64,000 bases of DNA from Branchiostoma floridae (lineage: Eukaryota; Chordata; Leptocardii; Amphioxiformes; Branchiostomatidae), in NCBI RefSeq assembly GCF_000003815.2, contig NC_049987.1, positions 10,584,714 to 10,648,713 of the forward strand, read 5' to 3'. A program made the position numbers and the translations under genes. Below, in pieces: positions 19,913-46,400 of the stretch; position 1 is the stretch's first letter, and each line of letters begins with the position of its first letter. The notes under the pieces were generated by a model that had not been told where the DNA came from, searched no databases, and was given only the letters and a program-made list of their open reading frames with translations.

Positions 19913-22900
19913 CTAGGCTCTAAAGTCGCTGGGGGGAGCCGGGGCCGGTTCCTTATCTGGCGTGCTCACGCGGAACGTGCCCTGCTTACTGACTCCGCTG
20001 ACGTCCCGCTTCACTCCCTGATTAAGAGTGGGGTTAGCGGGCGGCTTGGGAAATCCGTTCTGCGCAGAACGGTAATCCCCCGTCGGCCCTAGCGCGGCCG
20101 CAGCATTAGACATGGCGGCCAGTCTCGCCAGCAGCTCGTCAGCACGGCTGGCCTCCTCCTCCTCCTCCTTGGAGCTGACAGGGAAGGGCATGGCGAGGGG
20201 AGGTAGCGGCTCCGGAACCTTGGCCATGCTATCGCTGTCGTCACCCTTGGAGGACACACTCTTCTTGTCCCCTTTCCCAACACAGCAGGAGCTGAGGAAT
20301 CTGTCACAACAACCTCTCTTCTGGTCTCCAATACCGACATCTTTCTCCTGAAAAAGAAGATGCTAAGATTTACTCTACATTGACCCCTGTGCCCTCTATT
20401 TCGGTACAAGAAATACGACTTTGAAAGTAAAAATCAAAGATGTATTATCTACAATGTAACAACATTTAAGCAATACTAAGCGATGCAGTTATAATGTGGT
20501 AAACATTAATCACAACCAAGGTGCAATTAAGATCTAATCTAGCCTCACTAAATCTCTAAACAGCTTAAGACCGCGATATCCTGCCCTAAGACTCGTGTTT
20601 CACTTAATGACCCATGCCTTAATAGTCGCATTCTTCTCGATCTTCTATGCCTGACTACTTTTAGAAGTGATTAGTACTTCGTTCTTGTCATAATTGTTCG
20701 ATTATGTGAAGCTGTTAAAATGTTGTTTTATGGAAGGAAAGAATCTGAAGACTAGATCATTGGCAAACGTTTCTAAGTCAATGTGAGAACTGCAGAGGGG
20801 GTTCTTTGTTCTGATAACTCTATGAAAGACGCACAACTTTGACACAGCCGTTGCGTTTAGAGTGGCACTCAAAAATACCGACAAAAGAAACAAACAAAAA
20901 TAATAAGGACAATTACTTGGCTCAATGTCTTTAGAGATACATGTAAGCATCTACCTGGTCACCACATAAAGGGGATCTATATACAGTGACTGCTATCTTC
21001 GGATTCTGCTTTTTGCTGCAAATTATTAGACATCAATGGGGACTTATATACTTTTGACCTGTATTTGTATGAAACACATTTGCATGATGTCATTTTGTAA
21101 TGGTGTGGAATGAAGTTAATTAAAGTAAAAAAAAAAAGGTGGTGTGGCACTTGTTTCTTTAACTTATCCTCCGACACAACTACAACGGTAGACTCACCCG
21201 TCGCTCCCGTTTGGCCTGGACCTTGTAGACTATCAGTTCCACCAGGGCAACCACGACCCCGAGAACGATGGTCCCTCCGACCACAACAAACATAGGTGCG
21301 AGACCGTCTGGAGCCAACACATGCATGGCTGTAGCGTCTTCTCCCGGACACTGCCGGGCCGGGCTCATCAGCCACTTCATCTGTAGCTTCTGTAAGGTGC
21401 CGTCATTCTGCATGCTGGAGGAACATCGTCAGATAGGCAAGAATGAAGAATTGTTCATATACAATGCTTCATAAAAAAACTGACGGTTTAAGACCTTGGC
21501 ATTGCTTAGAGGCAAACGCGTAAGACCATATAGTGCCTAATGGCACAATGTGATTTTTTTGCTGTTTCAGTAGCAGAGTTACAAGGAAGGTTTGCCCTTT
21601 CATCCCATTTAACTTTTTCAAGGCATGCCCTTGTGCACGGGACCGCTAATTCACGTCTCTTTCCAAAGACGGGTAGCTGCGCCAACCGAGATGTCATTCC
21701 CAGGGTTTGTAACTGAATAAACTACTGGTATAAATATTATCCCAACTGTAAGGCTGCTAAGCATACACTTGGTAAGCTAAACATGTGGGTAACGCGTATG
21801 AAGTACGTATTTCAGGTGCAAAACCTGTTACATAGTAGTTTTCATCATACAGTGTGTTGACGTATTGGAAATGTACTGACTATTGCATTGGGTACAATGA
21901 GTGCACACATTTCCCTTGAAGTTGCAATAGATATGAAGAAAAGTGGTCTATTGGCGAGATTTCCTGTTAGAACTGCAAATTATTAATAATTTGATTGCTT
22001 TCTTCGTACCTTACAAATTGCTCAATATATATGGATACAAAGTTTTCAAAAAAGCAAAAGAAAATCTACATTTATAGGGGCAATTTCTTTGCATAAACTC
22101 TTTGCAATCACAACTAAGCCAGTCTAAGCTACAGAGATCTCGTTATCAAGTGTTGGTAGATAACTCTATTTACTTGCCCGAACGAGTACTTTGTTGAAGA
22201 CTTACTCGATGATTATCTTGTCGAATATGTCCTTGAAGACGGAGCCTTTGGGGAAGGGCAGACCGAGTTCGTAGGGTAAGAAGTAGTTGCCGACCGTCCG
22301 GAGTTGACAGTTGTACTTGTCTCGATAGTCGAACTCCACACGAGAGGTCGTGATGAAGGCGTAGCTTTCCTAGAAAGCCAAAGGAGGGGCGTTGTATTAG
22401 GTATAAGTCTCCAAGAAGAACATCTATGGTCTGTAACGTATAGGATTTCTGAGAAAAACAGCAAAGATCTGTGTGAGACATAGCTTGCCTAGAAAATCAC
22501 TGATATGTAACGTGTATATAGCCTTTCTAGGAAAATAACACAGATCTTAAAGGTTTATCTAGACAAACATAGTGCAAGATATAGTTTTCCCAGAAAAACA
22601 AATTTGGTCTATAAGGTATAACTACACAAACATCATGAAAGGTATAGCTTTCCTAAAAACAACATTGGTCTGTAAGGCAAATGTTTCTACGAAAGGCGTT
22701 TTTAAATGAAAACGTAGGGAGACCCCCTGGAAATCATCAAAGAGGAGTGATCTGCACAGCATGACGTTCCAAGAGCAAAACAACAAAATAAAAGGGTCAT
22801 CTTCGGGGCATAACTTTCCTAGAAAATTATGACTTGTTAGCTGTGAGTCATTTCTATTAGCCATTATCACATATTCTGCGTACAGACAACAGACGGCCTG

Positions 22901-25900: not shown

Positions 25901-28900
25901 TTATGTACTCATGTATTATTTTCAATGTGATGGCGGCATAACTATAAGTTAATGAGCATGTCATATCACCATGTCTTCTCAATATATGTTGCAATGATAA
26001 AAAGCTTGAGGTCTTTCTCGGCAGTTGTTTCTGTCGGAGCCTGGTTAGAAATTCTATTACATTTAAGTCGTACGACGAACCCTGACAAATATAACCGTGC
26101 CCTGAAGCCCACATTCCAATAGACGTCGATCGCGCTACGACTTCACTGCGACCTAGTTTAGATTTGTGCAATCCTTGATTTTATCATCGACATGTCATGT
26201 AGAGTGGACAAATGTGATTGAGCAGAAAACAAAATACAAAACACTATGAGGTCTGTTGAGCGTTCTGTCAAATCACTCCGTCGTTGCGTCGTCGCACAGT
26301 GAGGTCTCAGCGAGGTTACCACACAAGTGGAAAGGAGGTGTGACCGAACTCTAGTCCACCTATGTATAACTTTATTTATCATAACCTTCCTTATATATCA
26401 CAAACCATCACATACAGACGAAGAATACCACACGTTTCATACCCTGAATTATTACCTTCGCTTGATATAGTTTGTTACAAATTCTCGAATTAAGAACCCA
26501 CTGCATTGTCTTCAGTCTGAATTGTCTTACAACGTCTCCAATTGGACATCTGAAATTGTCTTCATTCATAGTTAAAGTATAAAAGACCTGTTTCTTCCAG
26601 ATCATCTCAGTGTCACTGACGAAAACTGGTGGATTCCAGTTGAAACGTCTGACCGTTTCCAAAACCATATCCAGTTGCTTGAGTAACTACTTTTTGGTGT
26701 ACCTTATTACCTGGATGTCTAACCTACATCAACGTAACCTACTACAAACAACTTATGAACAAAATGTAAGGGGACTGCAAGCAGCGCAATGATAAGGCAA
26801 GGAACTATAGAAGATTGGGTCAAACTTTTACACTGACTTGTTGTGAAGTTCAATGGGGTGTACCTACGTTCATGTAGCGCCACATGGTTGCGTAAGGCTC
26901 CGTCTGGGTGTTCTTGAAGAAGTTGAGCAGCGGCGTGATCCTCTTGTTCAGTCCGTACGCGATCTTGTTCTGATAGGCCAGGTCTGAGACGGAGTTCACC
27001 TGAAACCAAACCACACAGCTTGTTAGATTCAGTTCCACATAGTTCCACGAAAACCGCCAAATGGCACAGAACCGACCGTCATCTTTGTTTTTTTTCTTTC
27101 ATCTAATTAAAAAATATCACTTTCTAATAATTACAGATTATTAGCAGATATCATTTGGCGCTAACGTGAGTTTGAAGCTTTCATCATTATGTACATGAAA
27201 ACACAGCTTCATTGCAGTGGTATGTACCAAAGTGATGTATTTTCTCATAGAAAAAGGGAATATCAAGGGCAATAAAACCTGATGACGTCATCCATATGGC
27301 CCAAAAATCAGATATAGAATACTTTTATGCCCGTCTATCGAAATTCGTAAGGGCTCCATTCTATCTTAATTAATTAATGAGAAAACAATGGAAGGTCAAA
27401 ATGCCAATTTAGCCGATCCTGAAACCTTACTAAGCTGAATATTCGACATATAACTTAGTGTTTTAACTGAAGTAAAAAAAATATATGTTTATTATACATC
27501 AAAGTAGATTGGCGATGATAAAGGATGTTCGTTTAGGAGACTTAAAGAAGAATTGATGAAGTACTACTAAAATTGCGCCGTTTTGAGTATTGCAAAATTA
27601 AACTAAAAATCGCAATTTCAACCTAAGTGCGTCGATGTGCGAGTGGGCAGTGTATTTTGGCGGAGTCCAGCAATATATCTGCTTAAGCATTCAACCCGTA
27701 CCTTGATGGTATCGTCCTTACTGAGTATAGCGGAAAAAGTAGACACGTAGTAGGCGAAGATGACCAGCGCAAAGAACCACCAACTACCGGTGATGATTCT
27801 TCCACCGATGGACCTATGTAAAACGTCAAAAAAGAAATCAAGTTAGATAAGAGCGGATGTTTATGTGGTGCAAAATCTCTTTCATTTTGGAGAAAAGTAG
27901 CTTTAGATAATGACAAAAAAAAGTTGTCTTTTGTCTCCCACTACTTCCAAAACACAGAAAAATCAGAGTTGAAAGTTAGAGTAGCACCGTACTCCACTAC
28001 GTCATTGTTTTCATTATATCATATCTTATAATTACCAATTAGCCTTCGGGCAAGACATCGCAATAAGTATATTATTGCATTAAAGGACTAGTGAAGCTTA
28101 CTTGTCTGTTCTGCATGATAAACAGATACGGTTTTAAAAGAGCCTTAAGGCGTCCAATCTCAATTTAATAAGACAGAGTGTCCTGTGTTATGTGTCTCAC
28201 GACTCAAGAGCTCTTGGGTCCAAAGCACTTACAAAATATTAACACATACATGTCATAAAAGTTTTTAAAGATTGATTGAATTTAAAAAGTTCCTAAGTCT
28301 TTTAAATCTGGATACTACTAGCGCGCTGCGACCTAAAATTTGACAAAACACCCTATAGGAATTTCTTGACAAAAGCTATTTATTTTGAGCTTTGCGTTTT
28401 TTTTCCGTTAATATGTTAAACTTTTGAATAATATTCCAATTAAGTCAAGAAACAGTGTGGTGGCGTTCGCCGTCTAGTGGAATGGGGGTCTATCAGATTG
28501 TACTCACCTCGGGGATTTCTCCACCCCCTGTCGACAGAATGACGTCAACCCTTGCCAGAAGCTGCCAATCAAACTGAAGGAGTCGTCCCTCTTCTCCACC
28601 TCGTCCTTACTGCGCATGCCCCACTCGTACGGGTCCAGCTTGTCTATGAAGTGTGACAGCATGCATGCGCATGCGTAGACGACCAGGATGTAGACCCATG
28701 TGTAGTTGCGCAGTGGAGACAGGAGTGTGATGGCTGGGGGGTCCTGTCTGCGCATGGTCACTAGAAACAACACACATCCGGTGAATCAAGAGGTTGTATA
28801 GCCTGGTATCCAGCCGTATTATAGCTCCCGAGTCGCTTCTGTTCTCTCTGCAAATACAGAAGTGCTATAATATGGCTGAAAACCAGGCTAAGAGGTCCTG

Positions 28901-31900
28901 TGTTGACATGCTCAGATGTGTCATTGGAAAAGGTACTTTAAACAAATTTCCTTACCTCAGCTAGGTCAAAATAAATACACGGCTTTGACAATGGCTGTAT
29001 CTCGGAAAGGACGTTGAATGGCGGCGCCGTGTTTTGGATAGCAATATCTTGAGCACGTGAAAGATCCTACCACACTCATCGGAAAAGCAGTGGTCCCTTC
29101 TTGTGTGAGTCCTATGATCGCCCCTCAAAGGGCAATTACTATGACACTGGGGTCAAGGTTCCGATGACAGTCTGCTATTACAGACCCTGTCGACTCCGCC
29201 CCGCCAGTCGTAAAGCTTCTCGCAAAATATCCCCTGGCTGCGAAGGGGGAGCCCAGGCCAATGACATGCCAAATCAAAAGTTTACTCCTGGAACAATGTG
29301 CCCTTCACATGTTAAAAATGATTATTATCATAAAAGCGAGAGCCAAAGGTACATTTCTGCTTATTTCGCTTGAATCTCCTCTGGTGTTAAGATAAACCAT
29401 AGACCGAAGCAGTTGGGACCTTTGTTGACGAAAGCAACGATAAGGGCACACGAAGTGAAAAAAAGGGACAAAAATAATGTTTGACTTATTGCCTAAGAAA
29501 TACCCAGAAAAGCAAAGACCACTACTAAGATAAGCATAAAAGTGCAAAGCGAAAAATATCTACCCCCTCTAAAACATTCCAAGTGGTACAAACCTACATC
29601 CTTGACCTATGGGCATCGTAGCAATATAAGATAACCCCATATAAAATGGCTTTCGGGCATGGAAGAAGAATCGACCTTGATTCAATGCCCTTATGCCCGC
29701 TCGGCACAAACTTTACTGAATCGCAACAGTAAAGCATAGGGATTGTTTAAGCTCAAGGGGCCAGCAATTTTCGACCTTTGGTACTTACTTAGTTTTCCCT
29801 GCTTCATCGTACAGGGCATATTCAATTAAGCCTAATCCTGTGCTGACCTCGGAAAGACTGTGCAGCTGTGTTCCTTCAGTGAGCGAGCTATGGCGGGTTT
29901 CCCAGTCAAACGCTCCAGATTGCGCCATGGAGTGTGCCTTGAAAAGGAGTCTTTTAACAAGAACCTGTTCCGTTATACCTGTCATTGTATTTTGGAGAAT
30001 CTTAATAAATAGATAAAAATTAGATTTGTAAATACGCGCCAACTTGTCGAATATGCACCTACTTTTCCTTGTAGTCAAACTGACGTGCTACTCAATTGCA
30101 TATGAAGCCCAGATGAATCTTACCATTAGATTGAAACAATTCTACACGATTATATCAAAGAAAAATGCGGTAATGAAGGGTTGCCAACATAGGTAAGAAA
30201 TCGTAGAACATAGGTAAGAAATTTCTTCAATTTGCAAATAACGAGATTTTTTTTTTTAATTTGACTGACTGACACTACTGTTCTGCCATTGCGGCACTGT
30301 TACTTTTATCGCAGATCGTCAAAGGATTTTGAGAGGAGAGGTTTCAAGCATTGGTGATAGACACAACCAAGGTCCTACGACGTAACGAGACAGCTAAGAA
30401 ACATGCACTTGTATCCTAACATACTTTATGTTTGCGATCGTATAGTAATCGTACGACTAAGTGTATGGACCCTTACCTATGTATCCCAGTGTGGCGATGG
30501 GCCGAGTGATGTCAACTTGAGCCAGAAACTTTTTACGAAGAGGAGCCAACGTGAGGGCGAAGTCTTGCTATATGAAAGAAAAACTTAAACATTTCAGTGA
30601 AAGATCAGTCAAAGTCAGAGAGCTTGTTTCTAAAGCCTTTTGCTCTTGGTAGGTAGTCATTTGACAACAGCATCTTCCTCAGTTTGTCACAAAAACACTC
30701 ACTCACTCACTTAATCACTGACTCACTTACTCAATCACTCACTTAATCACTGACTCACTCACTGACTCACTCACTGACTCACTCACACACTCACCTGTCC
30801 ATCCGTTGCGTCGGTTGCCAAGTGCTTTCTGATGACGTCACTCAGGGTCGTTCCTTTGGGCAGAATCTGGAGATTGTAGTTGAAATTTCCTCTCTTCTCC
30901 TTGGCCATCTCCTTCAACAGGTCCACCAGGTATCCGTGATCCTTATCTTTGAAGAAGATACTATCCTAAAAGTAGACGATAGAAAAAAGTAGAACAAAAA
31001 ATGTAATTTGAACGCAACTTTTGATACTTTAATGCGGTCTTCTGTCAACCACAAATGCAAATGGTTCTAATAAATAGATGTACGAAACGTTATCTTACTT
31101 CAAAAGTGACGATATTGAAAGTTTTGCGCCGGGACAGGTTCCATGCCGCTGAAGGGGCAAGGTACATACTTCTCGGTAGTGCAGTACTGCCACCTAGCGT
31201 TTGGGAGCCAGCCTGCAGGAGGAAATTGTGTATGGTGGTGAATAGTCTCTGCATCCAGACAAAAAAGTAGATTTAACACCCTGATGCTAAACCATTACCT
31301 GCATACACAAAAACTTCTTACACAACAAACATGCACAACTAGACATGTTCTTTGAAAAAACTTCATTAATAAGCCATGCAACTAGTGCTGATCACAAAAA
31401 GGTAGCTCTATCCTTGGTGCTGAACACCATCAACCTGCTCAGTTCTTAGTACTCATCACCATTTGACTCCACAAATAGCAAGTCTAGTCCCTTGTGATAA
31501 ACACTTGCAATTAAAACATAGCTAGCCATATCCATTTTGCTGCACACTATGAATTCACACATAGCTAGTCCTGTCCTTGGTGCTGAACATTTTGAATCCA
31601 CACGAAGCTAGCCCTGTCCTTGGTATTGAACACTTTGTTCTCTTTGTATAGGTAACTCACCGACATGAATCCAGATCTCTGGAACTCCAGCACATCCACC
31701 GTGATGCTGCTGCGGGCGCCATCAGAGTCAAAAGAGACCGTACCGGATTTCCCCTCAAACGAAATGCCCTGTTTAAAATTAAAGTAATCGGGAATAGTTG
31801 ATAATAGTATTTCTAACAATCAGTATCTTTATGTTGTGTCAATCATAAGTATACAAAGAATAAATTATAAAACTAGAGTTCGAAGAACACATCCCTTCGC

Positions 31901-34900
31901 CAAATAATCATACCTTTAAGGTCCTATTAATGTATTACCAAAGAGTACCTACCAATAGCAAATGACTGCATGAACATGTGTTCCTCACAAACCCACAAAC
32001 GCTATCAAAAACATAACCTTCTTGGCGAAGGTGACAATGAATGAACACTGTAGTGATACTTCACAGCGCAACTTTCATAGTGTTTTGTTTCAATCATGTA
32101 GTCTCTACCAGACTCCAGCCTGGCCGAATAGTAAATGATGATAGGGGGCTAAATGGCTATGTGTCATTGACATTTCTCTCTTTCTCAGTTACGTATGTGA
32201 CAAGTTTGAAAGTCCTATCATGCACTGCAGTGGATCTATAAACTTTCCTTATTAATTATGCAAATTAACTGATGATTTGCATTATGTATGGCGTCACATG
32301 GGCTATCTTCATACCAAAAATCATGATGATCCGTCAACATGTTCATGTTTACTCATTAATTATGTAAATGAGGTCGGCATTTGCATGATTAATATGTACT
32401 GGACATTTTTCTTTCTCAGCTACATATGTGACAAATTTGAAAGTCCTATTATGGAATTCAGTGGATTTATGAACTTTTCTCATTAATTATGCAAGTTAGC
32501 TGATGATTTGTTTAAATTAGTATTGCATTATGTAAGTCATCACTTAGGCTATCTATCACTCTAAAATCACGACCACAGTGTTCAGAACACAAGATGTCAA
32601 AAATTGATGTTTTGCTGCAGTACCTTAGGAAGCCTCTAGGGGGCCCATTATCGAACTGACGGAAAAAGACTACGCCAACCATTTTCGAACACGACCTTCC
32701 TGTCCGAAACCGCTACTCAAATACCAAATATCATTAAAATCCATACACAGCTGCTCTAGTTATATGTTGTTGACCTACATATTGGGGCACAACATGAGGC
32801 CTTAACCAAAAATATAACCTTCTCGGCGAAGGTAATAATATACCCACTCTATCTCAAAGCTACATAAAGGCGTGCAGTCTAACCTTTAGGTACGGGATAA
32901 TGTCTCTTTGGCAGTTGTCTGCACTCCCTTCCCCTTCCTTCAGCGCTCTCACTCCCTTCGCGAAGGCGGTGATAGCATCGTCCACCAGTAGCAGATACGG
33001 GTTGCTTGATTGGGAGGGCATGGAGTGCTGGAACGCTGTTATTCGCGCTTCAGGACTTCCCAGTATGTCTGCTGGGAGGGCTTCGTTCCAATTGCCCAAG
33101 GGTTGCTGGACGGTATAAACATTTAATGAGTCATCAAAATGTAGCTACGATGTTTATCCGATAGATCCAACATATACATCTAGTAAGGCACATACTTAGT
33201 AAAAATACCATTGGCTTATGGTGATGTAGATGAAATAAACTAAACCATACTGGACCCATATTCGTACAATTGGTAAAAGTATTTACGGCCTGCCTCCATT
33301 TCAGTCTTTTGTCTAATCATAGAAGGTAGCCGTATCATTTCATAATCATTGGTCAATTATTTCCACAAAATTATGTATTAGCATATATTTTACCATCATA
33401 CACTAATTAGCAATATCAATTAGAGTATAGTAACAATGCAGATATAGAAATTCTCCCTAACCTTATTAAATTACAATGGTCTTATCATACAGCAAACAAC
33501 ATTACACACTTACCGGATGTGACACCATCCAATGATAGTACTGATTCACCATGTCCAGTTCAACAGCCTAAAACAAGCGTTTTTTGAAGAAAATTATGTT
33601 GCTGATTAAGAAATTAGCATATCATAACAAGTCACTACACAATTCGCTAAGGACTGCAAGGAACCGTACAGTAGAGCATGAACAATCATGCATAGTACAC
33701 AGCTTTGTGAATCAAATAAATGAATTTCAGTTTATTGGACTAAATGGCTACACAACCTATACAAACTTTCCTTTAAACTAAAATGACATGTAATGGCAGA
33801 AAACCAACAAAAGAGCAGAGAAGAAACTGAGAATGGATGTTTTTTATTCATTTATCTATTCATTTATGCCACTATTTCAATAGATTTTAACAACACTAGC
33901 ATCTTACTGCGACCTACATTGTATTTTGGTAACCCTTGATTAATTAGAGTATCATGCAAAATGTAAGAGTATCATGAAAAGACAAAAGAAACAAATCCAA
34001 GAACGTCTCCCTGGTAGATCGGATGTGTTATAAAGTCATGTATTCGTCAGACCAGATGGCTTGTTTAGAGATATGACATTTCTTTACCCACCTTACTGAT
34101 CACCGTCTTGATGATGTCTAGCTCGGCGTGTAAGATGATCTTCCGGAGTCCTGAGGTTCGAACCTGTAACAGCGTGCTGAGAACATCACTATCTGACACC
34201 ACGCCACGGCCGGGTAGGATGTACACACCCATCGGCACACGGTCGTCAGTGTTCTGGGCCAGAACGTGCTCAACACCTTCCATATCTGTGAGAAAAGAAT
34301 TTATGACAGTGTTACTTTTCCGATAACAACGTTAGAAATAAACTAAAGAGTAAGTGAAGGTAGTCAATTTAGTAGTTTTGTAGTTGATTTAGAAGCAACA
34401 TTGTTACAGAAAATACAAAGGTAGAAAAAGCTAGCCATATGGCGCCAGATAGTTATATTGATAATGTAAGAAAGAGCATTAACGCAGACATGGTGACCTA
34501 TGACCCATCTGCACATCCAAGCCACCTGAAAACCCGAGATTTCTATAGCGTACCGGGTACCAAACAATTGCGAAAAGGTCTTTTTTATTAATTAAACAAA
34601 ATAAAGATGGCAAAACACTTGCCTGTAAAATCCAGCTGAAAATGTCAACACCTGTGTATAACCCAAAAAACATGTCGCAGTTGCTTTTACTAAAGAAGCC
34701 AATAGTATTTCTACAATAGCCTGATAGTTGGCCTTTTGCATTCGTCTTATAGTGCCCTTACCATAGACGCCATCGTGGATCACGGCGACGGACTGCCATC
34801 TGTACGCATGCGTGATGGCGCTCACCATGACGTGAGTCTTCTCGTTCCCCGGAAGCAGGTAGAAGTTGTAGTCGCTGCGGGAGACCCGCCGGTGGATGTA

Positions 34901-37135
34901 AAACCTGGAAAGGTAATAGGTAAAAATCAAGGTGGTCCCATGAACATGTTGAGGCCGTAGGGGTAGTGGGTTGTTGTCCACTGTGTTTGAAGCCTGCTAT
35001 TGGCAGATGGAGCCCAAACCTCTCCTTCCACCGTCTTTTACCTACCCAACCAAAGCTATTTTTACGCCTGGGAGGAGGGAAGACATCTAAGTCAAGTGCT
35101 TTTTCTAAGGACAAAATGTATCGCCGGATCGAAGACGTGACTTTTCGATTTTGGACCCACAAGCCTAGCCACTGAGCCATTTGACGCCACTAAGATATGG
35201 GAGAAGACACAAATTATTACATTCAAGTAAGACAAGGCATCACATCCTTTTACGAATCCAGCATGTATGATAGGCATGAACTCTTTTTATCTAGTACTTT
35301 ACCCATGTGTCACTTAAAACAATGCCGAATGGTATGAAGCTATTCTGTAGAAAACATGATTGAAAGATAAACGCTCTATTGAGCTCTGTTTATTTTGCGA
35401 TATAATGTAGTCTCTGAAACTCTCCATCTAGTGACACAGTCGAGTAGAAGACGTATTCTTCAAATGACGAGGTAAATTCATGATTTGTTTTTCACTGTGA
35501 CGCTTTACCTACCTTGGAATGGAATCGTTCGTGACGTAAGCAAAGACATCGTCGAGTCGTTTTTTATGTTCGTCATCTCCGATCAGAAACAGGGCACAGA
35601 CACCTTGTGCTAGATCCATAGCTAAAGAAAATAAACAAGAAGGTCTTTGAGGTCAATAAAAGAGACAACAACCTAGCTTGTACGATGAGTGACAGTCTCG
35701 AGCTTATTTCTTTTGATATTAATAATATCTTTCAATGAAACCCATGGTGACCGATGTTTAGGGACGCCCAAATGTCTTGTAGTATGCAGATAAGTCTACA
35801 GGTGGCGTGCGCTTGTAGCGTATTTCTGTTATCGTCTCAAAATATAAAGCCAGCTAATACTTTAGATGCAATACTAATATGATTGTCTGCAAAGTGATAA
35901 TTTAAATAGATTCTGTCCACTTGTCTTAATCTCATCAATTAGATGAAATTTGATAGCTTCTAGCCATTTGCTAATAAAGCCAATGGTCTTATCTTTCCGG
36001 TGCCCTTCCAATCCTTAAAAAGCTTTCCCCATTCAAATCATATCACAAGGAAAGTGGGGCGTCCAAACAATATGATTTTTAGGTAGCACTTTCACATCTA
36101 ATACAAGCTAACGTCCTACATTGTTTTTGTTATCATTTGAGACGGCTGAATATGTTTGTGTATAAGAATGAAAGAAACTAGCAGGACAGTACTTTTGAGA
36201 GTTCTTTGTATACAGCAAAGTAGTCTTCTCTAAGTAGTCAACGTTTCGGTCTATCACCATTCGAAAACCGACAAAACTGATTGGTTTTGATACTGAAAAC
36301 TTGATGATCCAGCCACTTGCAAACCTGAAGAAACAATTCACGAAAGAAGAAGCTTGCAGAACATCAGTCAACATAAATTTAGCCATTCTATAGCTGTAGT
36401 ACACTTCAAACAGTCGGAGTAGTGACCCAAGGAATCGTACAAAAGCTACATGTAACAAGGCTGGATTCCAGGCGAAAGTTGACTACCTTTCTGTGCCATC
36501 TGGGCGCGCGTCTCTCCCCCTACTATCAGGCCCTTCCTCAGCTGCAGCGCCACGCCGACGTCCCGGTTAGCGTCGTTCGCGGCCTCCACCGCTGTCTCCG
36601 CCGCCAGCAGGTTTCCCGCGCACTTGGAGGCTGACCCTTCCTGACAACTGCCGCCCGGGGCAAGCAGAACGCCTTTGTGTAGTGAAAAAAAAAACATTGT
36701 TGAGCTAGTGAGTTTGTGAGCTAGTGAATGAGTGAACGAGTGAGGGAGGAATTGAGTGAGTGAGTGGGCGAGTGAGTGACTGAGTAAGCATGAGTGAGTG
36801 AGGAAGGGAGGGTGTGAATGAGTGAGTGAGTGAATGATCATGAGTGAGTGAGATCTAGTGAATAATTGAATGTGTACAAGGCTAGCTTTTTGTCACGATT
36901 TCAACTTGAAAATATTGTCACATCTATGCCTGATAATAATAGCGGAAAAAAATGGCGGTTGTAGGAGGACCCATGATATAAAGATGAACAATGCACAAAC
37001 AGCCTTTCAGCCTGAAAAAATTATCAGGTATACAACAATGAAAACACACCAACCTATTCTAACAGACTCAGGCCTGACGACTGTTGCCGCTCCGGATAAG
37101 ATGGCGAGGAGGAAGATAGTTCTCAGTCCTGCCAT
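19913..37135 (-). CDS. Divergent ionotropic glutamate receptor-like subunit, gene 1 (18 exons, 961 aa)
   Basis: Predicted ligand-gated cation-channel subunit. Exons in coding order: 37054-37135, 36487-36672, 35513-35621, 34762-34904, 34092-34285, 33514-33567, 32884-33105, 31661-31768, 31099-31212, 30795-30965, 30477-30567, 28508-28760, 27702-27813, 26868-26999, 23737-23835, 22206-22369, 21198-21414, 19913-20347. All introns are GT-AG, phases agree, and the 2886-nt frame is open to its TAA/TAG-type stop. The start has a good Kozak context (ACCATGG) and a signal peptide. Domains: amino-terminal domain about 28-390; S1 about 394-490; M1 about 511-530 followed by LDPYEWG; pore loop 553-576; M3 about 586-607; S2 612-770 with Cys711 and Cys767 as the conserved disulfide; M4 about 785-808; 144-residue tail with a GCC/SSCC cysteine cluster (possible palmitoylation) and a Glu run. 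Odd: Arg568 at the Q/R site, M3 motif AYYVSTFSAIL, no canonical ligand Arg, Thr698 in place of the ligand Glu. It lies 2.2 kb downstream of its paralogue on the same strand. Confidence 0.9.
22361..22825 (-). repeat. Tandem degenerate copies of a splice-acceptor-like segment in intron 15
   Basis: The real acceptor of gene 1 exon 16 (TTTCTAG|GAAAGCTACGCC, minus strand, at about 22369) is followed upstream in the intron by about five look-alikes, near 22479, 22517, 22578, 22641 and 22808. These read approximately TTTTCTAGGCAAGCTATGTC, CCTAGAAAGGCTATAT, CTGGGAAAACTATATC, TTAGGAAAGCTATACC and TTTCTAGGAAAGTTATGC. Spacing is irregular (about 40-170 bp). Confidence 0.55.
24155..24262 (+). repeat. Probable retroposon 3' end with an AAATAAATGAATG tail
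   Basis: A GC-rich segment with GGGCTGGCCC and an imperfect inverse (AGGGCAACCCTGGCTG) ends in AAATAAATAAATGAATGAA. The layout resembles the 3' end of a short retroposon in an intron of receptor gene 1. The family is not identified. Confidence 0.4.
25116..25177. repeat. Short inverted repeat
   Basis: GGTTAGTTTTATGTCC (25116-25131) is mirrored by GGACGTAAAACTAACTAAGG (25158-25177), with a 26-base loop, inside intron 14 of receptor gene 1. Probably a remnant of a small MITE. Confidence 0.4.
25288..25539. mobile_element. MITE with about 47-bp terminal inverted repeats
   Basis: The left arm, from TTAAGGTGGTATCTCACTGC (25288) to GCGGCACTGCGGG (about 25336), is mirrored by CCCGCAGTGCCGCACC through GGTATCATCTTACG (about 25491-25539). 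The intervening 150 bp is unrelated and AT-rich. It lies in intron 14 of receptor gene 1 and has no coding capacity. Confidence 0.65.
26596..26735 (+). repeat. Retroelement 3'-UTR-like fragment (copy 1)
   Basis: Contains GTTGAAACGTCTGACCGTTT, then CCAAAACCATATCCAGTTGC, TTGAGTAACTACTTTTTGG and TACCTTATTACCTGGATGTC. A second diverged copy lies at about 49440-49555. The wording (cytosine-rich 'gaaacgtctgac...tttccaaaa' blocks) resembles 3' ends of retroelements of the Penelope or LINE type seen in invertebrate genomes (recalled, not verified). Confidence 0.45.
27085..27431 (+). mobile_element. Solo arm of the 7056-7704 foldback family
   Basis: Matches the loop and right arm of the element at 7056-7704 over about 340 bp: shared landmarks are TTACAGATTATTAGCAGATA, GAGTTTGAAGCTTTCATCA, the GATGACGTCATC palindrome (TGACGTCA at 27283-27290) and GAAAACAATGGAAGGTCAAA. 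Only one arm is present, so it is a truncated or unequal-recombination product. It sits in intron 13 of receptor gene 1, just upstream of exon 14. Confidence 0.7.
28799..28890. mobile_element. Small hairpin element, 27-bp arms
   Basis: TAGCCTGGTATCCAGCCGTA (28799) with its continuation TTATAGC is mirrored by GCTATAATATGGCTGAAAAC and CAGGCTA (ends 28890). Total 92 bp; it lies about 40 bp upstream of the acceptor of gene 1 exon 12. Confidence 0.6.
30697..30794 (-). repeat. (GTGA)n-type microsatellite abutting a splice donor
   Basis: On the minus strand, exon 10 of receptor gene 1 ends at 30795 and its donor GTGAGT is the first unit of a GTGAGT/GTCAGT repeat running about 98 bp into the intron, with about a dozen GTGAGT hexamers. 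Confidence 0.8.
31395..31645. repeat. Degenerate minisatellite in intron 8 of receptor gene 1
   Basis: Repeats of a roughly 50-bp unit containing AGCTAGTCCTGTCCTTGGTG and CTGAACA followed by a TTTTGAATCCACAC-like segment. A related GTTCAGCACCAAGGACAGGG motif occurs at about 43830 inside receptor gene 2. Confidence 0.5.
32015..32833 (+). repeat. Two LINE-tail-like hairpins flanking a 230-bp tandem duplication
   Basis: AACCTTCTTGGCGAAGGT (32015-32032) and AACCTTCTCGGCGAAGGT (32816-32833) are stem-loop sequences like those at 3' ends of some invertebrate non-LTR retroelements. Between them a roughly 232-bp unit is tandemly duplicated (starts about 32161 and 32395; shared landmarks GACAAGTTTGAAAGTCCTAT and TCATTAATTATG). 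All lies in intron 7 of receptor gene 1; no reverse-transcriptase frame is present. Confidence 0.45.
34922..35188 (-). mobile_element. tRNA-derived SINE
   Basis: Reading the minus strand, an A-box-like TGGCTCAGTGGC (35168-35179) is followed by a B-box-like GTCTTCGATCCGG (35124-35136), the spacing and wording of a tRNA-derived polymerase III promoter. A GTCCTTAGAAAAAGCACTT segment follows, as in tRNA-derived SINE bodies. The element ends only about 17 bp from the acceptor of gene 1 exon 4. The 140-codon frame across it is not a gene. Confidence 0.65.
36705..36851. repeat. (GAGT)n microsatellite in intron 1 of receptor gene 1
   Basis: Imperfect GAGTGAGT repeats over about 147 bp, ending roughly 30 bp upstream of the acceptor of exon 2 (minus strand CTCA pyrimidine-rich strand). 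The long Leu-Thr-His-Ser frame read through it is spurious. Confidence 0.85.
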
Positions 37136-37944
37136 GGTGTCTAGAAACATTCAGCGTGTGACAATTAGACACCATATTGGAAAATATATGTACATTAGAA
37201 CTGCCCTTTCAGACACCACGCCCACTTGTCTCCTATTAAACTCCCGTTCAAATAGAGGCTGCGATGACGCTGAGACCTTTCTGCCACCACACGACGACCA
37301 AAGAGTTTACAGATAAAACAACGAATTTTGAAAATGAAGAATTTTTTCGGGTTTGTGTGCTTAGTCCTTTAGTACATACTTTTGCATCGTGCATGCGTAT
37401 TTTCCAAAATATACGGCCTACGACGTATGTGGCTAACAGTTACACACGATTTCAGGAATTGTAACTCGTTTGACTTTGCTGTACCCAGTCTTTCAATTTG
37501 AAAAAAAAAAACCATTCGTCCAGTATGCCGCATCAATTATATTTTTATTCACTATGACGTAATACTATACAAACAATCTTACATTCAACTTTAGTTGTAA
37601 AACACACAAAACATTTCAGATCTCAATCATTTACCGGGTGGAAATTCTGGTTAGATTGCTTTTTTCTTAGAAAATGGAAAGGCCGATGAAAGTTTCTAAA
37701 AGTCGTTAGAAACAAAGCTCAAGCCTACCTAAGTATGACATACAATAGATGCTTGTTATCTCACATTATGAGTAGGTAGCCGCCCTTACCTGAATCCGAT
37801 GCGTTGTGTCTTTCCGCTCTTCCTCCCTCACCCGTGGAGTACAAGAAGACAACCGGTTAGACCTACGCCAAGCAAACCTACAGAAATCACCACATTACCG
37901 AACCCAACCCACGGCAATCCGGAAGCCAAATCCCCAATCCTCCA

Positions 37945-38060
37945 TCATCTAATTATCGCCATTATTAGATCGATAAAGTGCTCTTATCGCATATTAATTA
38001 GATGAGGTTAATTGCCTCATTAAAGATGGATGATATTGAATCATTGGGGCCATTAAGCCG
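37945..38060. promoter_or_regulatory. Homeodomain-site-like cluster upstream of receptor gene 1
   Basis: Dense TAAT/ATTA cores: CATCTAATTATCGCCATTAT, ATTAATTAGATGAGGTTAAT and TGCCTCATTAAAG, together with ATCGATAA and CTTATCG sites and an imperfect palindrome ATGAGGTTAATTGCCTCAT. It lies about 0.8 kb upstream of the gene 1 start codon, in the spacer after gene 2. Enhancer or promoter activity is inference from site density alone. Confidence 0.35.
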
Positions 38061-39354
38061 AAGTGCACGGATGGTTGGCGACACAGAATTGAAATGAAGT
38101 ACGAGTTTCTTGGAAGGACGATTTTAATAATTCAATAAACAAAGAAGATCTCCGCAGGGATAGTTGCTAACATGTTAGTGTTGAGCTTTGAGACTTTAAA
38201 AGATCTTGTGAAAGACAGTTGTACTGTTGGGCCAGATGTTTCAAGTAAAGCAAACCAACTTTAACTCTTCTAGCCTTTTCCTAAATCTTGGCAACGTTAC
38301 GTCTAACGTCTTTGTCATAAATTCACAATAAGACCGCGTGTTTTATTACCTTATTTGCAACACTGTTAACATAGATATTTAGACATACATGAAATAGGAA
38401 TGGGTGATAACGAAGTTTAGTACAAGCTATAATACAAGCCTTGTGATATCTGTTCATGGTCAATAATCAGAGGATACTGATCTAATTGCGACAATAGTTT
38501 TAATTTGAAATTCATACTTCCTATCTTCTATAAATGCATGAAGAATGCAATACTTGCAATACAAAGAACTGTTGATGTATGGTAATGCACAGGAAGTAGC
38601 AACTCCCGAAGATGCATCCGTTATTATGAACATCCATCATGCGTGCCACATGGGGAGTAATCTTAGTCCCAAGCCACTTCTAGCGTTTTCCCTGCTTCTG
38701 ATTCCCTCTTAATTCTCAGTAAAACGTGTAAAAACAACTTCATCCTTAGTGGAACATGTCATCAACATGCTAACGTAAAACAAGACACAATCCAGGCAAG
38801 TTTCAGTGACGATTTATTTCACACCATATTAGCGATCGTACAGTTTAATAATATCATATATCATTGCAATATTGTAAGGTTCGCAACGATTAGTTAAGTC
38901 TTTTGAAGTTGGTTTATTTGTAATGTTTTGTATTTATTTGTAAATGTTCCAAGCAGCATCTGCATGCCTTTCCTGTGTCTCGTGGAAATGGTATCTTTAG
39001 CGATGTATAACTTGTGATATACATATCAACAGTAGGCATATCCTTTCAATTGTTACCCACAGGTAGTCTGCATACACGTATAGTGTATTTTCCTTGCGTT
39101 TATTCGCCTTGCATAGAATCATGTCAGTCTTTCTTTAATGCACTTCTGTTACATTACATACACATCATATTTCGTGTAGATAAATCCTTGTTATAAATTA
39201 GAAGGAGGCGATAGTATTGCTATATCTACGCTAACTGTTGTCTTCTTAATGTTGCTTTACATCTTGTTCATGCACTGGTATGTCACGCGTGCTATCACAT
39301 TTTGGCGGCGCCTCAGGGCCGAACCCTCAAAAGCGTCCTACTAGCTCTAGTATA
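38061..39354. other. 3' flank and likely 3' UTR of receptor gene 2
   Basis: No coding exon. On the minus strand several AATAAA signals follow the gene 2 stop codon, the nearest being in the TTTATT clusters at about 38812-38935, so the 3' UTR is probably about 0.4-0.55 kb long. Confidence 0.4.
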
Positions 39355-42300
39355 TCATAGTGCAAACTCTACAGGGGGTTCAGGAGGGGGGCGGATAATG
39401 TCCCCATGCTCACTCCTGTGCACGTTAACGGTGTAGCTCAGAGCCTTGCCCGGAGCGGACATGTCGTCATCCAGGGGTGGAGACTCACCGAGACCGGTGT
39501 CGTTAGACCGCGCCCCGTGCATGCCGTAACCAGTGCTCTCCACGTCATCACCTCCCTCCGCCATGTTGGGGTCACCTGAGGTCGCGGCCGGGGAGGATGA
39601 CGTCAGCTGCATCCCGCGACCATTTTGAGCGGTTTTGTTGTCCATGGGGATGACTGATACAGTCATCCTGTCCCGAGGGAGAGTCCCGCGGTACGGCAGC
39701 GGCCCCCGCGGGGCACTGGGGTTGATGAACGGAGGACTGTTCCGGTCTAGAAAAGGGCTTCCGGTCGTCCCCTTCTGGGGCCGTGGGGCCTCAACGGAAG
39801 ACTTGTTGGATTTTCTGAACAGGGAGGACAGACGTCGGAAGGCAATGGACGCTGATGATCTCCGTCCGAGCTTCGTGTCTAGTGCTTTCTGTGGGTTCTG
39901 AAAAAAAGTAACAGGAATGTATGTAGATCTATTGATTGGTTTTAGGCCATTTTTCTTAGCCGGGTTTACATCAATGGGCTACATGATTAAATGGTTATAA
40001 CTGCGAAAGGGTCGGAAATATGGAAAGCACCATTTTACAATAACATAGTTTGGTGGCAGGATGGGAAAATAAGGCAAAAAGAAACGGCTGTAGAACTAAC
40101 TGTAAAACATCATTTGTAGAAATGACTGAAATATATGATTCACATAGCCAACAGCACTGTCACATGAATACTTACCAGTTTCTCAAACTCCTCGTCCCTC
40201 TTATGGAAGAACCACAGGAATTCCACCACGGCCACGAAGATGGCCACGCCCATGGCCACGCCCATCCCGACAAACACGACCGTCAGGTTTTCCGGCGCGA
40301 TGACTCTCGTTCCCAGGGGGTCGTCTCCGTTACAGTTACAGGAGTCGTACGTCACCGTCATCCACTTGTTCTGCAGCTCCTCCAACACGCCCTCTTCTTG
40401 TAGTCTGTGGAAAAGATAAGTAAGAAATAGTGATAAATGAAAAACGTTGTATTTCCGTTAAAGCTACCGGCCCTACCAAATACCTGCCTATGGGGGGTCC
40501 ACCGCTGCCAAGGGACATATTTTTTTAATCTAACGTCTTAGGAATGCAAACGCTATATAGTCGTTTTCCAAGACGTTCTCTTTATTCATTACAAGAGAAA
40601 CAGTAATATAAGAAGATCTAGACCAACCAAACTTATGTCCCCTTTATGTTGACAGCAAGCATAAAATACATCTGCTTGAAAGAAACATGATGTTGCAAAT
40701 ATTATCATAAAATGTCTATTACAAAAATAACCCCTACTAACCGACCATTTTTGTTCTAAGGTCTGTGCCCGAAAACATGGCATTACTTTTACTTAGGCCT
40801 TAAATCTGCAATCAAGAAAATGTTCAGTCGCAAAGACAAATGGTGTAAACATGATCTAAGTAGACAAATGTGATGTAGGGAGGGGCGTATAGTGATTGGG
40901 AGGTATAAATTATTTAGGGGCATGCAAAAGTTTCGTTTGTAAAACATCATCATATGGATAAACGTACATCCGCTTTACTGCCACAAGATATCATGATCAC
41001 AAATAATTGTGATCGATTCGAAAAGTATTAAGTTGATAATAGGTGGTACTCTATACCTTACACTTTATTGTATCTACTTAATCTAATCCAAATAGATTTT
41101 AGAAAGTTCTCAATGCTAATTTGATTTAGATATCGACCAGAATGGAAGCTGCAACGGAGAGAAGACAGAGACTGAGTGTCTAAATGTGATACGATAAAAT
41201 GATGTAGTGTTTACCAGACTTCATAGGTCGCTTGGAAAAATATCAGAAATTGGACTGACAGATAACATGAGTTAGCTGGTCTGGGAATGCCTCCTGTGAC
41301 CCATTTATGATTTACTCATAGTCCGGCTAACTCACCTGGGAAGTTATCTGTCTATTTCTTGATTTATACTATCATCCTATGAAGTCTGGTTATGACTGAA
41401 AATGATGAATTTTACCTCGATGAGGGTTAGACATCTAGGTAATAAGATACACCAAAAAGTACGCAAGCAACGCAGGGTACGCAAGCAACTGGATATAATT
41501 TTTGAACCGGTAAGATATCAACCGTTATCATTTGTCAGTGGCACTTGTTTGAATAACATTTACTGTTTTTTGGCGATGAGTATTACCTTAGGATTTCCTT
41601 GGTGAACTCATGCTGGAAGATCGAGCCTTTAGGGAAGGCGAGTCCCAGGCCGTACGGGAAGAAGTAGTTTCCTGCCGTCTCCAGTTGACACTGGTCCTGC
41701 GCAAAGAACTGGATCTTGGAGTGAGTGATGAAGGAGTAGGGTCTCCACACGGTCTCGGAGTATGTGCCCGGAACACCGAGGAACACTCCCTTCTGTACCT
41801 TTTCTACGCCTGTGTTGTCGGTAGGGACCACCACGTCTACTCGGTTGTCCTGGAAAAAGATGTCCCCGTGGTTCACAAAAGTATAGATGGTGTTGGGTTA
41901 CTAATAGGCCAATGTGTGAGATGAGGATCTCTCTATGCAATGCCGAATTGCGCCAAACTTCCGTAAAGCTATTACAGCATAACATATTGTACAATAAATA
42001 TATCACCGTTTGCGCCAAGTGCATGAAAATATCTTTAAAAGACTTGAAATCTATGCAACAAGTTTTGCTGTTTGACCGGTTTGCACCACTTTGAGAATGA
42101 CTGGTCAAATTGTTAAGTGAGATACCCACTAAAGGCATTTCCAACTGTTTTCTACTTCTTTCTGCACTTTCACACACAAGTGCACACAGAAAGAGAGACA
42201 GGGATGGAAATACGGAAAACGTTTTACTATCAACGTCAACTGTTTCATAGATACGTCCCCTGTTTCTTAAGATGATATCTACTTACACTGATGAAGTTGT

Positions 42301-43445
42301 GCATTTCCTTGAAGGGTTTTAAGCCATCTCCCTGAACTTTGTCGAACGTCTCGAAGAAGCTGTTGACCGGGGGAAGGAACTTGTTGATGCCGTATGCGAT
42401 GTCTTCGCGGTGGTGAAGGTCCTCCATGCCGCTGATCTGCATAGCGGAGCACGCCACCAGTAGACCCGCGAACGTCGCGATGTAGTACGTCACCAGGGTC
42501 ACGGCGAACAGCAGCCACCCCGCCGCGATCAGCTTCCCTGCGTACGACCTGATTTTGTAGAATGAAGAGTGGTTTTATATAATATTTTTGTTCATTCGAA
42601 CCCTTTCAGTGCCTATTGTCACATAGGACTACACGTTTCCTTGCTGTTTTAGTAGCAATACATTTTTTTTTCTATTGAAGTGGTTGCTAGTCTTTCCTCT
42701 CTAACATACTGGTGACATCTTTTTTAACCCGAAACCCTTATTTCTGTCCCTTACGAAAGATAGGTGCAGCGCCAACCGAGATGCTCTACCCAAAAAACCT
42801 AGTAACCAACTAATTGGAACCAAGAGTTCAGCTGTGTGGCTCTACCAGTTGAGATAAATTGGCTTCCACCAAGTCTCTGGTAGGTTTCAAGGAGAGTACC
42901 GAATTCAGTTTCCTGTTTCATATAACACATACATTGATACTGAGATATTGTACAGAGGCCAGCTTCTACATTCGGAACAAGGTCAATACTGAATGATTAC
43001 ACGAAACAATGACAAGATGGCTCAAGCCAATGAAGCCTTTCGTACATACCTCGGTACCTTCTCCATACCCTGTAAGACCAGAGCTCGGTAGACGAACCAC
43101 GGGCTGTTCCTCCCACCGTACGGGTCCGCCAGCTCGCTCTCGTCCTCCTCCCTCCCCTGCCTCCGGTTGTGCAGGCCCCATTCGAACGGGTCAAACTTGT
43201 TGATGCCGTAGAACGCAAGGGTCACGCTTGCGTACACGGCTATGATGTACAGCCAGGTGTAGTTTTGCAGAGGGGTCAGGAGGGTGACGACGTCAGCTGC
43301 CTGAAAATAAAGTCAAAGAAAATCAGTGAGACACTTGTCAAAGGTATTAACTGTCATAGCTGCTGAACAGATTTTTTTTACCAAATAATGAACTAAACCA
43401 GAATTCCAATTTCTCAATTTCCTTATACCGTATCCGCCTTGCATC

Positions 43446-43489
<44 letters not shown>

Positions 43490-46400
43490 GAGAGACAGAG
43501 AGACAGAGAGAAAATATTGCTAGTTATTAAGAGAGGGAGTCTTAGAAGATACAAACCTTGGTTTTTGGTTTCTTCCACAGAACGGTGTAGCCCAGGTTGA
43601 GGACGGAGATCGTAATGTCCACCTGGTCAGAGTAGTTGAACGGAGTCAGGATCAGACCCAAGTCTTTGGGCTTTTGAGCCTGTAAAATATGGAGAAAAAA
43701 ATCTTCATCAAAGACCTCGTTATACGTGTATCAATGGTGTGCAGCACCAAGGGCTGGTAGCTGTACATGTATCGATGGTGTTAAGCAAAAACGACAGAGC
43801 TGGTTACGTAAGTATTGAGAGTTCAGCACCAAGGACAGGGCTGATTGCACAGTACATATATCGATAGCATTTCGAACGTTTCAATGGTAACAGGGGACCA
43901 TGTGCCCCTATCGGATGGACATTTATAGTTCATTGAGCTCCTACTAGAGACATTGGAAGGCAATGGTTCTCTCGAGATAGAGGTGCACATGCATGGTCAC
44001 AAGCTCTAGAATACAAACATTGTGTAACACATCCTAGAAAATAATGCCGTGATACTCACTCCCTCCACTAAGGACGCGCCGACTACGCTGCCCACATTGT
44101 GGACTCGTGCAACCGCCAGGTCGAACTTAAACTTCAGTTCACTTGCTATGGCCTTGATAACGTCGATGAGATAACCTTCAAACACGTCATTTCCTGTCAG
44201 GTCTTTGCCGTTCTCCGTGAAGTTCACGAAAACTCCTTGCTATAAGAGAACATAACAAATCTGTTAGAAGATCTGATGGGCGTTGCTTTTATGCTGTTTT
44301 GCTTCAAATCATAGTATCTCTATTTAAAGTTTGAAACGCTATGCCATAGAGCTTGGTCATATTCATGGTACAATCATAGTACAGTCGCAATTAAGTGTCG
44401 TATAAGATTCAACTGTCCTTTTAACGAGACGGCTGTCATAGATTCTTATCATAGTCAGTCGTAGAATATTTCCACATCCTACTATCTACGACCTAATGTT
44501 CAAACAAATTTTAACTATATCATTTACCGGTATAATACTGAAGCGCAAAACTTTTATTCCTACCTTTAAAGTAGATGCAACTACAACTAAATTTCATGAA
44601 AAAAACACAATAACCAAACCTACTGCCATGATAGTTATCATTACAGCAAATTTTGACGTTGCTGGATAATTTATCAGGGGAAGTCGGAAAAGTGTGGAAG
44701 TTTAACTTACCGTGTAGGTTTCTATGTGGAACATTTTGTGAGCGGAGAACGGAAGTGGACTATCGTCGTAGTACGTGTCAATGGCCAGTCTGGCGCCTTC
44801 AGTAGGAGTCCAGTTCCCAACCTGTAATCAGAAAATGGGTTATTTTATGACCTCATTCCAGTAGATGGCGATCGCACTGGGTGTGTGTAACCATTGGGTT
44901 CATAATTTGAATATCATGCCAAATGTAATATCTTTCTGACAACAAAACACAGCATTTATGTAAGTAAAAATATCACCTTTGATGCATGAATTTCCCATCT
45001 ATGCATTTTGCTTAACGCTCTGTCAAGTTTTATGTCTTTGGGGTATAGGGGTATAGCCATGTTTGTCTGCATTGTCTGTGTATAGCTCCCCTGGATTATA
45101 ATGTATGAAAAATAATTTGTGCGAAATGTTACGTAAATTATCACTATATTGTTCCGGGCCATCATTGACGCCAGGACATAGCCTTTTCATTAGCACTCGC
45201 AGTAGTATAGTAATCCCTACTATACTACTACTCGCCTCTAGCAGGCCTAGGCAATATATTTATAAGTAGTACACAAAACCATTATAATTTTGTATTCATG
45301 TTTTGGTAAGTACCTCGAAATAGCCGACTACGGGCATTATCTATATCTATATCTACTTACAGATTGAAGCACGCCGTTTTTAAACTCGGAGATATCAATG
45401 CTAAACTTCGTCAGGTAGCCGTCAGGACCGAACGCTCTTCCACCGAACTCCATGCCCTGGAAGAATAATGGTCGATAAAAGTTATAATTTTATCATTAAC
45501 CAGCAAATTAATCTTAATCGAGTATCCGGGAATCCCACCTGGCAGCACCAAATTACGTCAGACAATCACTAAGTGTCACAAGGCCAATCGGTATAATTTG
45601 TTCCTTAAATTTTGACTTTTTCACCCTTTCAAACATTTTAAACGCATCTGCGCAAATTTGGCCGGAATGAAAAATTCACACATATTCGCAGTCAAGTGAG
45701 ATCCCGGCTTAAACAAGACAGAAATACGATTTACTTACACTGGTCAGTTCTCGTATGAGAGTATCTCTACAGTCGTCTTCATTCGTGTTTTCGGGAAACC
45801 TCTCGATGCCTTTGATCATCATGCCGACGGAGTCCACCACCAGCGCTTCGTATGTCGTGAGGTTCCTCAGCTTCCCCAGCCCCTCATACCCCCCTGCCAG
45901 TGTGAATGTGGTGATCCGGGCGTTCGTACGTCTGTATCCGCTCAGGTCCAACTCCGACCGGACCTGGTCATGAGCAGACACATATATTTAGTCTTCGTTG
46001 CAGTCTTCGAACGGGGCTTGTTTTTATTTAGGGTGGGGGGAGGGTTGCGATTTTCAACGTTGGCTATGTTCTCTTGTGCCGGAGAAGGGAGTTTGTCGAG
46101 GAACGGNNNNNNNNNNNNNNNNNNNNNNNNNNNNNNNNNNNNNNNNNNNNNNNNNNNNNNNNNNNNNNNNNNNNNNNNNNNNNNNNNNNNNNNNNNNNNN
46201 NNNNNNCCCCCCCACCCCCCAAATAAAAAACAGCCCCGTTAGAAGACTGCAACGGAGGCTTAGTATAAAACAGTTCATATATCTGTGTACATGTTTACAT
46301 TGCGCCAGTTGCTTTCGCCATTCATTTCCATGTACACACCGTTGGATGAAAACTCTATGGCATTAAGCATGTCCAGGATACAACAGCCGTAATTTATGCG

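Follow-up and report, generated by a model that had tools for sequence, protein, structure and literature searches.

Two neighbouring amphioxus ionotropic glutamate receptor genes with changed ligand pocket and channel gate

We analysed a stretch of 64,000 nucleotides from Branchiostoma floridae (C9:10584714-10648713, in an assembly of 513,431,437 bases and 431 contigs; hereafter the window). It carries two neighbouring ionotropic glutamate receptor (iGluR) genes, gene 1 and gene 2, both on the minus strand in head-to-tail order, which span window positions 19913-49720. Judged from the encoded residues, the amino-acid site is dismantled in both genes, and the M3 gate motif SYTANLAAF and the glutamine of the Q/R site are lost together with it. 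The two genes probably do something other than direct glutamate or glycine sensing. A quite possible reading, which we prefer tentatively, is that this intact, long-branched tandem pair acts as partner subunits without the usual agonist binding.

The models of both genes (Table 1) were built by hand without transcripts, and their terminal exons rely on frame, splice phase and, as judged by eye, a start resembling a signal peptide. After splicing, neither the 961 codons of gene 1 nor the 1020 codons of gene 2 contain an internal stop, and GT-AG borders were found at all introns (17/17 and 15/15; 32/32 together). The G+C content at third codon positions was 0.68 in gene 1 and 0.70 in gene 2, compared with 0.39 and 0.38 in their introns. 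Both proteins were above the Pfam cut-offs for Lig_chan (PF00060; 6.2e-24 for gene 1, 2.4e-17 for gene 2) and ANF_receptor (PF01094; 2.8e-19 and 3.2e-15), so that Lig_chan and an amino-terminal domain (ATD), the combination that defines the iGluR family, occur in one polypeptide in each case. Lig_chan-Glu_bd was above cut-off in gene 2 only (3.9e-7; 30.6 bits, with the cut-off at 30). Both retain the ATD, S1 and S2, the M1-pore-M3-M4 arrangement and the S2 cysteine at 718. Over S1-M4, gene 1 found its best PDB match in GluK2 (1.4e-47), and gene 2 in GluA2 (3.3e-43).

Table 1. Window coordinates of the two genes and of the segments and residues discussed in the text
Feature	Position	Strand	Remark
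Gene 1, iGluR, 18 exons, 961 aa	19913..37135	-	hand-built model
Gene 1 exons 1-9	37135-37054, 36672-36487, 35621-35513, 34904-34762, 34285-34092, 33567-33514, 33105-32884, 31768-31661, 31212-31099	-	
Gene 1 exons 10-18	30965-30795, 30567-30477, 28760-28508, 27813-27702, 26999-26868, 23835-23737, 22369-22206, 21414-21198, 20347-19913	-	
Gene 2, iGluR, 16 exons, 1020 aa	39355..49720	-	hand-built model
Gene 2 exons 1-8	49720-49645, 48923-48732, 48245-48140, 47746-47583, 47062-46875, 46643-46590, 45963-45739, 45456-45361	-	
Gene 2 exons 9-16	44821-44711, 44239-44060, 43679-43557, 43300-43050, 42548-42287, 41849-41587, 40404-40176, 39897-39355	-	
Gene 1 S1 stretch PLRKKFLAQVD, aa 470-480	30511..30543	-	D-to-D spacing 17, as in GluA2
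Gene 1 Phe475	30528-30526	-	GluA2 Arg485 position
Gene 1 Arg472	30537-30535	-	GluA2 position 482
Gene 2 S1 stretch PFNYSDQVD, aa 477-485	43617..43643	-	two residues shorter
Gene 2 Tyr480	43634-43632	-	GluA2 Arg485 position
Gene 1 S2 motif YAFITT	22346..22363	-	Thr698 = Glu705 position
Gene 2 S2 motif YSFITH	41721..41738	-	His719 = Glu705 position
Gene 1 M3 gate YYVSTFSAI	27726..27752	-	replaces SYTANLAAF (2/9)
Gene 2 M3 gate YYIATFAGL	42461..42487	-	replaces SYTANLAAF (3/9)
Gene 1 pore SFCRQG	28525..28542	-	Arg568 at Q/R site; Glu kept at 590 (four positions on)
Gene 2 pore ALVLQG	43067..43084	-	Leu581 at Q/R site; Glu kept at 590 (four positions on)

The initial annotation had claimed that both receptors lack the arginine and the acidic residue of the canonical glutamate site, and the alignments bear this out. 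In three MAFFT modes, the position of GluA2 Arg485 was invariably occupied by F475 in gene 1 and Y480 in gene 2; phmmer aligned gene 1 with GluK2 in a register two residues off that of MAFFT, still without an arginine at 485. In the spliced models, Thr698 and His719 stand at position 705, just where the annotation had put them. R485 combined with an acidic 705, the functional mark of AMPA/kainate receptors for amino-acid agonists, was thus found in neither gene. The S1 loop had also been described as shortened in both. This proved correct for gene 2, by two residues (D470-D485, 15 apart), but not for gene 1, where the bracketing aspartates D463 and D480 are 17 apart as are D473 and D490 of GluA2. 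The interval first given for the finding, 30477..43679, covers the two S1 exons, but the S2 exon of gene 1 with T698 lies outside it, at about 22.3 kb.

The changes in the pocket extend beyond 485 and 705. At GluA2 positions 450, 478, 480, 482 and 485, gene 1 has L, L, P, R and F and gene 2 has V, L, P, N and Y (three MAFFT modes); at 653, 655, 705 and 732, the residues are I, L, T and L in gene 1 and L, V, H and L in gene 2 (two modes; columns 653 and 655, next to an insertion of one residue, are less certain than the other pocket positions). Besides 485 and 705, six positions (450, 478, 480, 653, 655 and 732) therefore differ from GluA2 in both genes; at 480, GluK2 itself departs from GluA2. 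Both genes have an insertion of about 12-13 residues ahead of the YAFIT strand in S2, and a cysteine is found at the second disulfide position or within one column of it. More is lost than the annotation had stated, namely these six positions and SYTANLAAF; of the S2 disulfide, Cys718 is kept as had been proposed. We take positions 478 and 480, like Cys718, to be important. Arg472 of gene 1 sits three residues upstream of the 485 position, presumably about one helical turn away if the helix of GluA2 is kept; it might come near the pocket in the structure. Roles in the ligand site have been named for 485, 705, 653, 655, 732 and 450 (PMC6307864 and PMC12226733).

A canonical S1 exon hidden in the window was looked for. 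Employing a hidden Markov model (HMM) of the S1 loop, we obtained no match to such an exon in the window, with nothing at E<0.5. The same model matched 18 of 21 distinct stretches taken from the genome (25 of 28 loci when duplicates are counted) and missed L006, L010 and L011; this control is partly circular because 12 of the 14 seeds were drawn from the loci searched with it.

Two losses that the initial annotation did not mention lie in the channel. SYTANLAAF was present in the other nine aligned rows, with 9/9 residues in eight of them and 8/9 in L019, and is replaced in genes 1 and 2 by a similar sequence of the type YYx[AS]TF[AS]. At the Q/R site, neither gene has glutamine (R568 in gene 1, L581 in gene 2). 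SYTANLAAF has been used to recognise iGluRs of Aplysia, and a figure legend of the same paper describes it as conserved in all chordates studied there (PMC5225553). The methods of PMC6307864 drop sequences with fewer than four residues of the motif; genes 1 and 2, with 2/9 and 3/9, are below this limit and hence fall under that exclusion rule.

A second iGluR-type group with a lost gate motif was seen elsewhere in the genome, at L020 (C2:985000-994999), L021 (C2:1040000-1049999) and L022 and L023 (C8:7860000-7881999). Its gate, read by eye, is of the type LCTGAIVGI, with one of the nine motif residues in three loci and 3/9 in L021, so that this group is also below the four-residue filter of PMC6307864. 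It keeps R485 in 4/4 loci and Glu705 in 3/4.

To place the two genes among relatives, we built a tree from 23 sequences aligned over six blocks with 295 columns in all. Besides genes 1 and 2, these comprised two rat references and 19 loci picked by hand from the genome's match lists. The resulting tree has no root and no Phi, Delta or NMDA reference. Genes 1 and 2 were sisters (support 99.9/100), with long branches of 0.60 and 0.69 after their split, and fell into a clade of seven genes (98.4/98) together with C219, C17, C15a, C15b and C15c, of which C15b and C15c are near-identical. These five relatives carry SYTANLAAF. The clade was recovered without five divergent loci (99.9/100), without those loci and the S1 block (99.8/100), without gene 2 (99.6/100) and without gene 1 (98.5/99); when C219 and C17 were left out besides the five divergent loci and the S1 block was kept, its support was 96.1/80. 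Branching within the clade was weak and shifting: gene 1 alone joined C219 (75.9/73), and gene 2 alone moved to the base. The clade stood apart from the AMPA/kainate rows, on the same side as L019 and a group of loci (L018, L024-L027) that we labelled Epsilon-like in this analysis. Genes 1 and 2 were not nested in the latter group (94.5/95; 97.8/86), and in an unrooted tree a sister relation to it is compatible with this result.

Outside the clade, R485 was found in 16/16 rows (14 of the hand-picked loci and the two rat references) and an acidic 705 in 15/16, the exception being Met in L021. Because these rows are so constant, the change at 485 and 705 in genes 1 and 2 is more than ordinary variation. 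Within the clade, R485 is kept by four of the seven genes (C219 and the three C15 genes) and an acidic 705 by three (the C15 genes); C219 has Phe at 705, and C17 has Ser at 705 and Leu at 485. The S1 exon of C17 (L010:3796-3877) was a weak match (E 0.016) to an HMM that contains genes 1 and 2; its splice sites were set by eye. An order in which the acidic 705 was lost first and R485 later fits the residues of the clade, an order that depends on the weak inner branches. Six of the seven clade genes have arginine at 482, gene 2 being the exception and C17 having been read by eye; among the other rows it occurs in 0/16. The C219 locus itself (L009, 4602-3574) combines an intact SYTANLAAF with Phe705 and Tyr653; the latter residue has been reported for five Branchiostoma receptors (PMC6307864).

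The seven-gene clade may correspond to the Phi class described within the AKDF subfamily. According to PMC6307864, R485 and an acidic 705 are well conserved in 94/122 proteins of its new groups, and changes at these positions are particularly common in amphioxus Phi proteins (the species named are B. belcheri and B. lanceolatum) and in NMDA-Cnidaria; this loss in Phi proteins, too, was absent from the initial annotation. Some Phi proteins are described there as having a weaker SYTANLAAF and none as having Q586, and the residues at the Q/R site of genes 1 and 2 agree with the latter. If the assignment is right, the loss of R485 and acidic 705 is in essence already published at class level. Among the literature listed, which did not extend to subscription papers or supplements, no title is on gene 1 or gene 2.

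With the pocket dismantled, glutamate or glycine would no longer be bound in the usual way. From this it may follow, with less assurance, that genes 1 and 2 encode subunits of heterotetramers that do not bind agonist and serve as partners rather than as self-standing transmitter receptors. Their partners would perhaps be each other, or the C15 genes of the clade, in which the site is retained. The effect of such subunits would be on gating and, by way of Arg or Leu in the Q/R position, also on permeation. Mammalian AMPA/kainate homotetramers with four arginines at the Q/R/N site conduct poorly (PMC12226733), which fits gene 1 as a partner subunit.

Several points weigh against this reading. 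With Arg472, gene 1 may still bind an anionic ligand to some degree, and as no domain is missing, gating by a different ligand is just as conceivable. As to the class, the unrooted tree with its present references is compatible with a position of the clade on either side, AKDF or Epsilon. Nor is the class settled by the best PDB match, because the Epsilon-like L018 likewise best matched AMPA/kainate chains; in PDB searches with three relatives, the best 60 matches of 371, 380 and 336 all had chain names of AMPA or kainate type or just 'Glutamate receptor', none of them naming Delta or Epsilon. In addition, C17 has Gln at the Q/R site, which argues against simply equating the clade with a class in which no protein with Q586 is described (PMC6307864).

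That the two genes do not encode ordinary glutamate receptors, as first annotated, is supported by 485, 705 and the six further positions. The suggestion that they simply answer to another ligand is weakened because SYTANLAAF and the Q/R glutamine are lost too; a pure switch of ligand would not need a change of gate along with the pocket. As general proposals, however, 'another ligand' and 'modulatory subunits' both stand, and an analysis of sequences cannot choose between them. It seems to us rather unlikely that the two genes encode receptors that sense a different ligand, whether environmental or simply not an amino acid, with a pocket rebuilt as in the chemosensory ionotropic receptors (IRs) of protostomes and Arg472 possibly serving as a relocated anchor. 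S1 and S2 align throughout, the S2 cysteine is kept, 482 is arginine in most of the clade, and the IRs are iGluR relatives of olfactory and gustatory organs (PMC2924276), all of which would suit such receptors; gene 2, however, departs from this with its shorter loop and an Asn at 482. It is still less probable that the two genes encode leak channels, or channels open by default, that ligands or partners would shut. Trichoplax AKDF1, which lacks Asp705, is a precedent, showing a constitutive leak that ligands block, glycine most of all (PMC12226733), and 705 is T or H in genes 1 and 2 and F in C219, with F or Y at 485 in the pair. The M3 and Q/R sites are changed as well, however, and arginine at the latter lowers conductance (PMC12226733), and the likeness to AKDF1 is one of description and not of alignment.

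A role as non-conducting organisers working through the ATD is improbable. GluD is an organiser of this kind, and ANF_receptor is well matched in both genes while pocket and gate are both changed; the channel region, however, remains above the Lig_chan cut-off, and neither gene showed a feature specific to signalling by the ATD. The long branches and the loss of usually conserved motifs would be expected of genes decaying into pseudogenes, an explanation that deserves very little credence, since stop-free frames of this length would have chances of 8e-18 (gene 1) and 1e-18 (gene 2), a crude estimate from base composition alone, every intron keeps its GT-AG borders, and M3 is changed similarly in both genes. 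Nor do we give much weight to an artefact of alignment or annotation, in which the canonical residues would lie in an overlooked exon or come to light in a different register. The loop gap of gene 1 was placed differently by phmmer and MAFFT, and the models are hand-built, with a run of N in one gene 2 intron; yet neither register has Arg at 485, the S1-loop HMM that matched 18 of 21 distinct stretches had no match in the window, and the exons used hold the frame and have GT-AG borders.

Beyond partner subunits, a wider scenario would be a chordate lineage in which the pocket was dismantled stepwise (705, then 485), with the clade-specific arginine as a possible new anchor and SYTANLAAF turned into the YYx[AS]TF[AS]-type gate. 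We consider it speculative and, from the residues compared, assign it a low probability. If a lineage with rebuilt pocket and gate does exist, surveys requiring SYTANLAAF would miss its genes, and it would represent either a novel type of gating subunit or, among deuterostomes, a counterpart of the chemosensory IRs. Two intact chordate genes under the motif threshold suggest that the classification of iGluRs captures neither the full size nor the functional breadth of the family, and they are a natural test of how far pocket and gate can diverge while the gene stays intact.

Some further observations concern the surroundings of these features. The run of N, at window 46107-46206, lies between gene 2 exons 6 and 7 and could hide a small exon. 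The proteins end in EFAL (gene 2, window 39358-39369) and DFRA (gene 1, window 19916-19927), which are possibly PDZ-type ends. At window 54324-54852 there is a tandem repeat with a 163-base unit (3.3 copies, 92% matches), overlapped by a 205-aa reading frame whose sole Pfam match falls below cut-off. The whole genome gave 87 exon-level Lig_chan matches, of which several may belong to one gene and among which pseudogenes and haplotype copies are unsorted; they cluster, for example, at C9:11.08-11.15 Mb and C15:4.48-4.53 Mb. For B. lanceolatum, 24 iGluR subunits have been published (PMC6307864).

Among known systems, the protostome IRs resemble genes 1 and 2 as iGluR relatives without evidence of canonical glutamate function, an analogy of function drawn from their description. 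They differ in being reported as apparently absent from Deuterostomia (PMC2924276), and an identity of genes 1 and 2 with IRs of this type is disfavoured for that reason. Trichoplax AKDF1, also set beside the two genes by description, shares the absence of an acidic 705, but its other ligand residues predict glycine binding (PMC12226733), whereas genes 1 and 2 lack R485 as well. With the AMPA/kainate receptors GluA2 and GluK2, genes 1 and 2 share the domain order, the best PDB matches and Cys718, but not R485, E705 or SYTANLAAF, and they differ from GluA2 at 450, 478, 480, 653, 655 and 732. The Phi class, compared by its description only, is unlike the pair in that SYTANLAAF is reduced in genes 1 and 2 to 2/9 and 3/9; it is like them in the common loss of R485 and acidic 705, in having no Q586 and in the weak SYTANLAAF of some of its members (PMC6307864).

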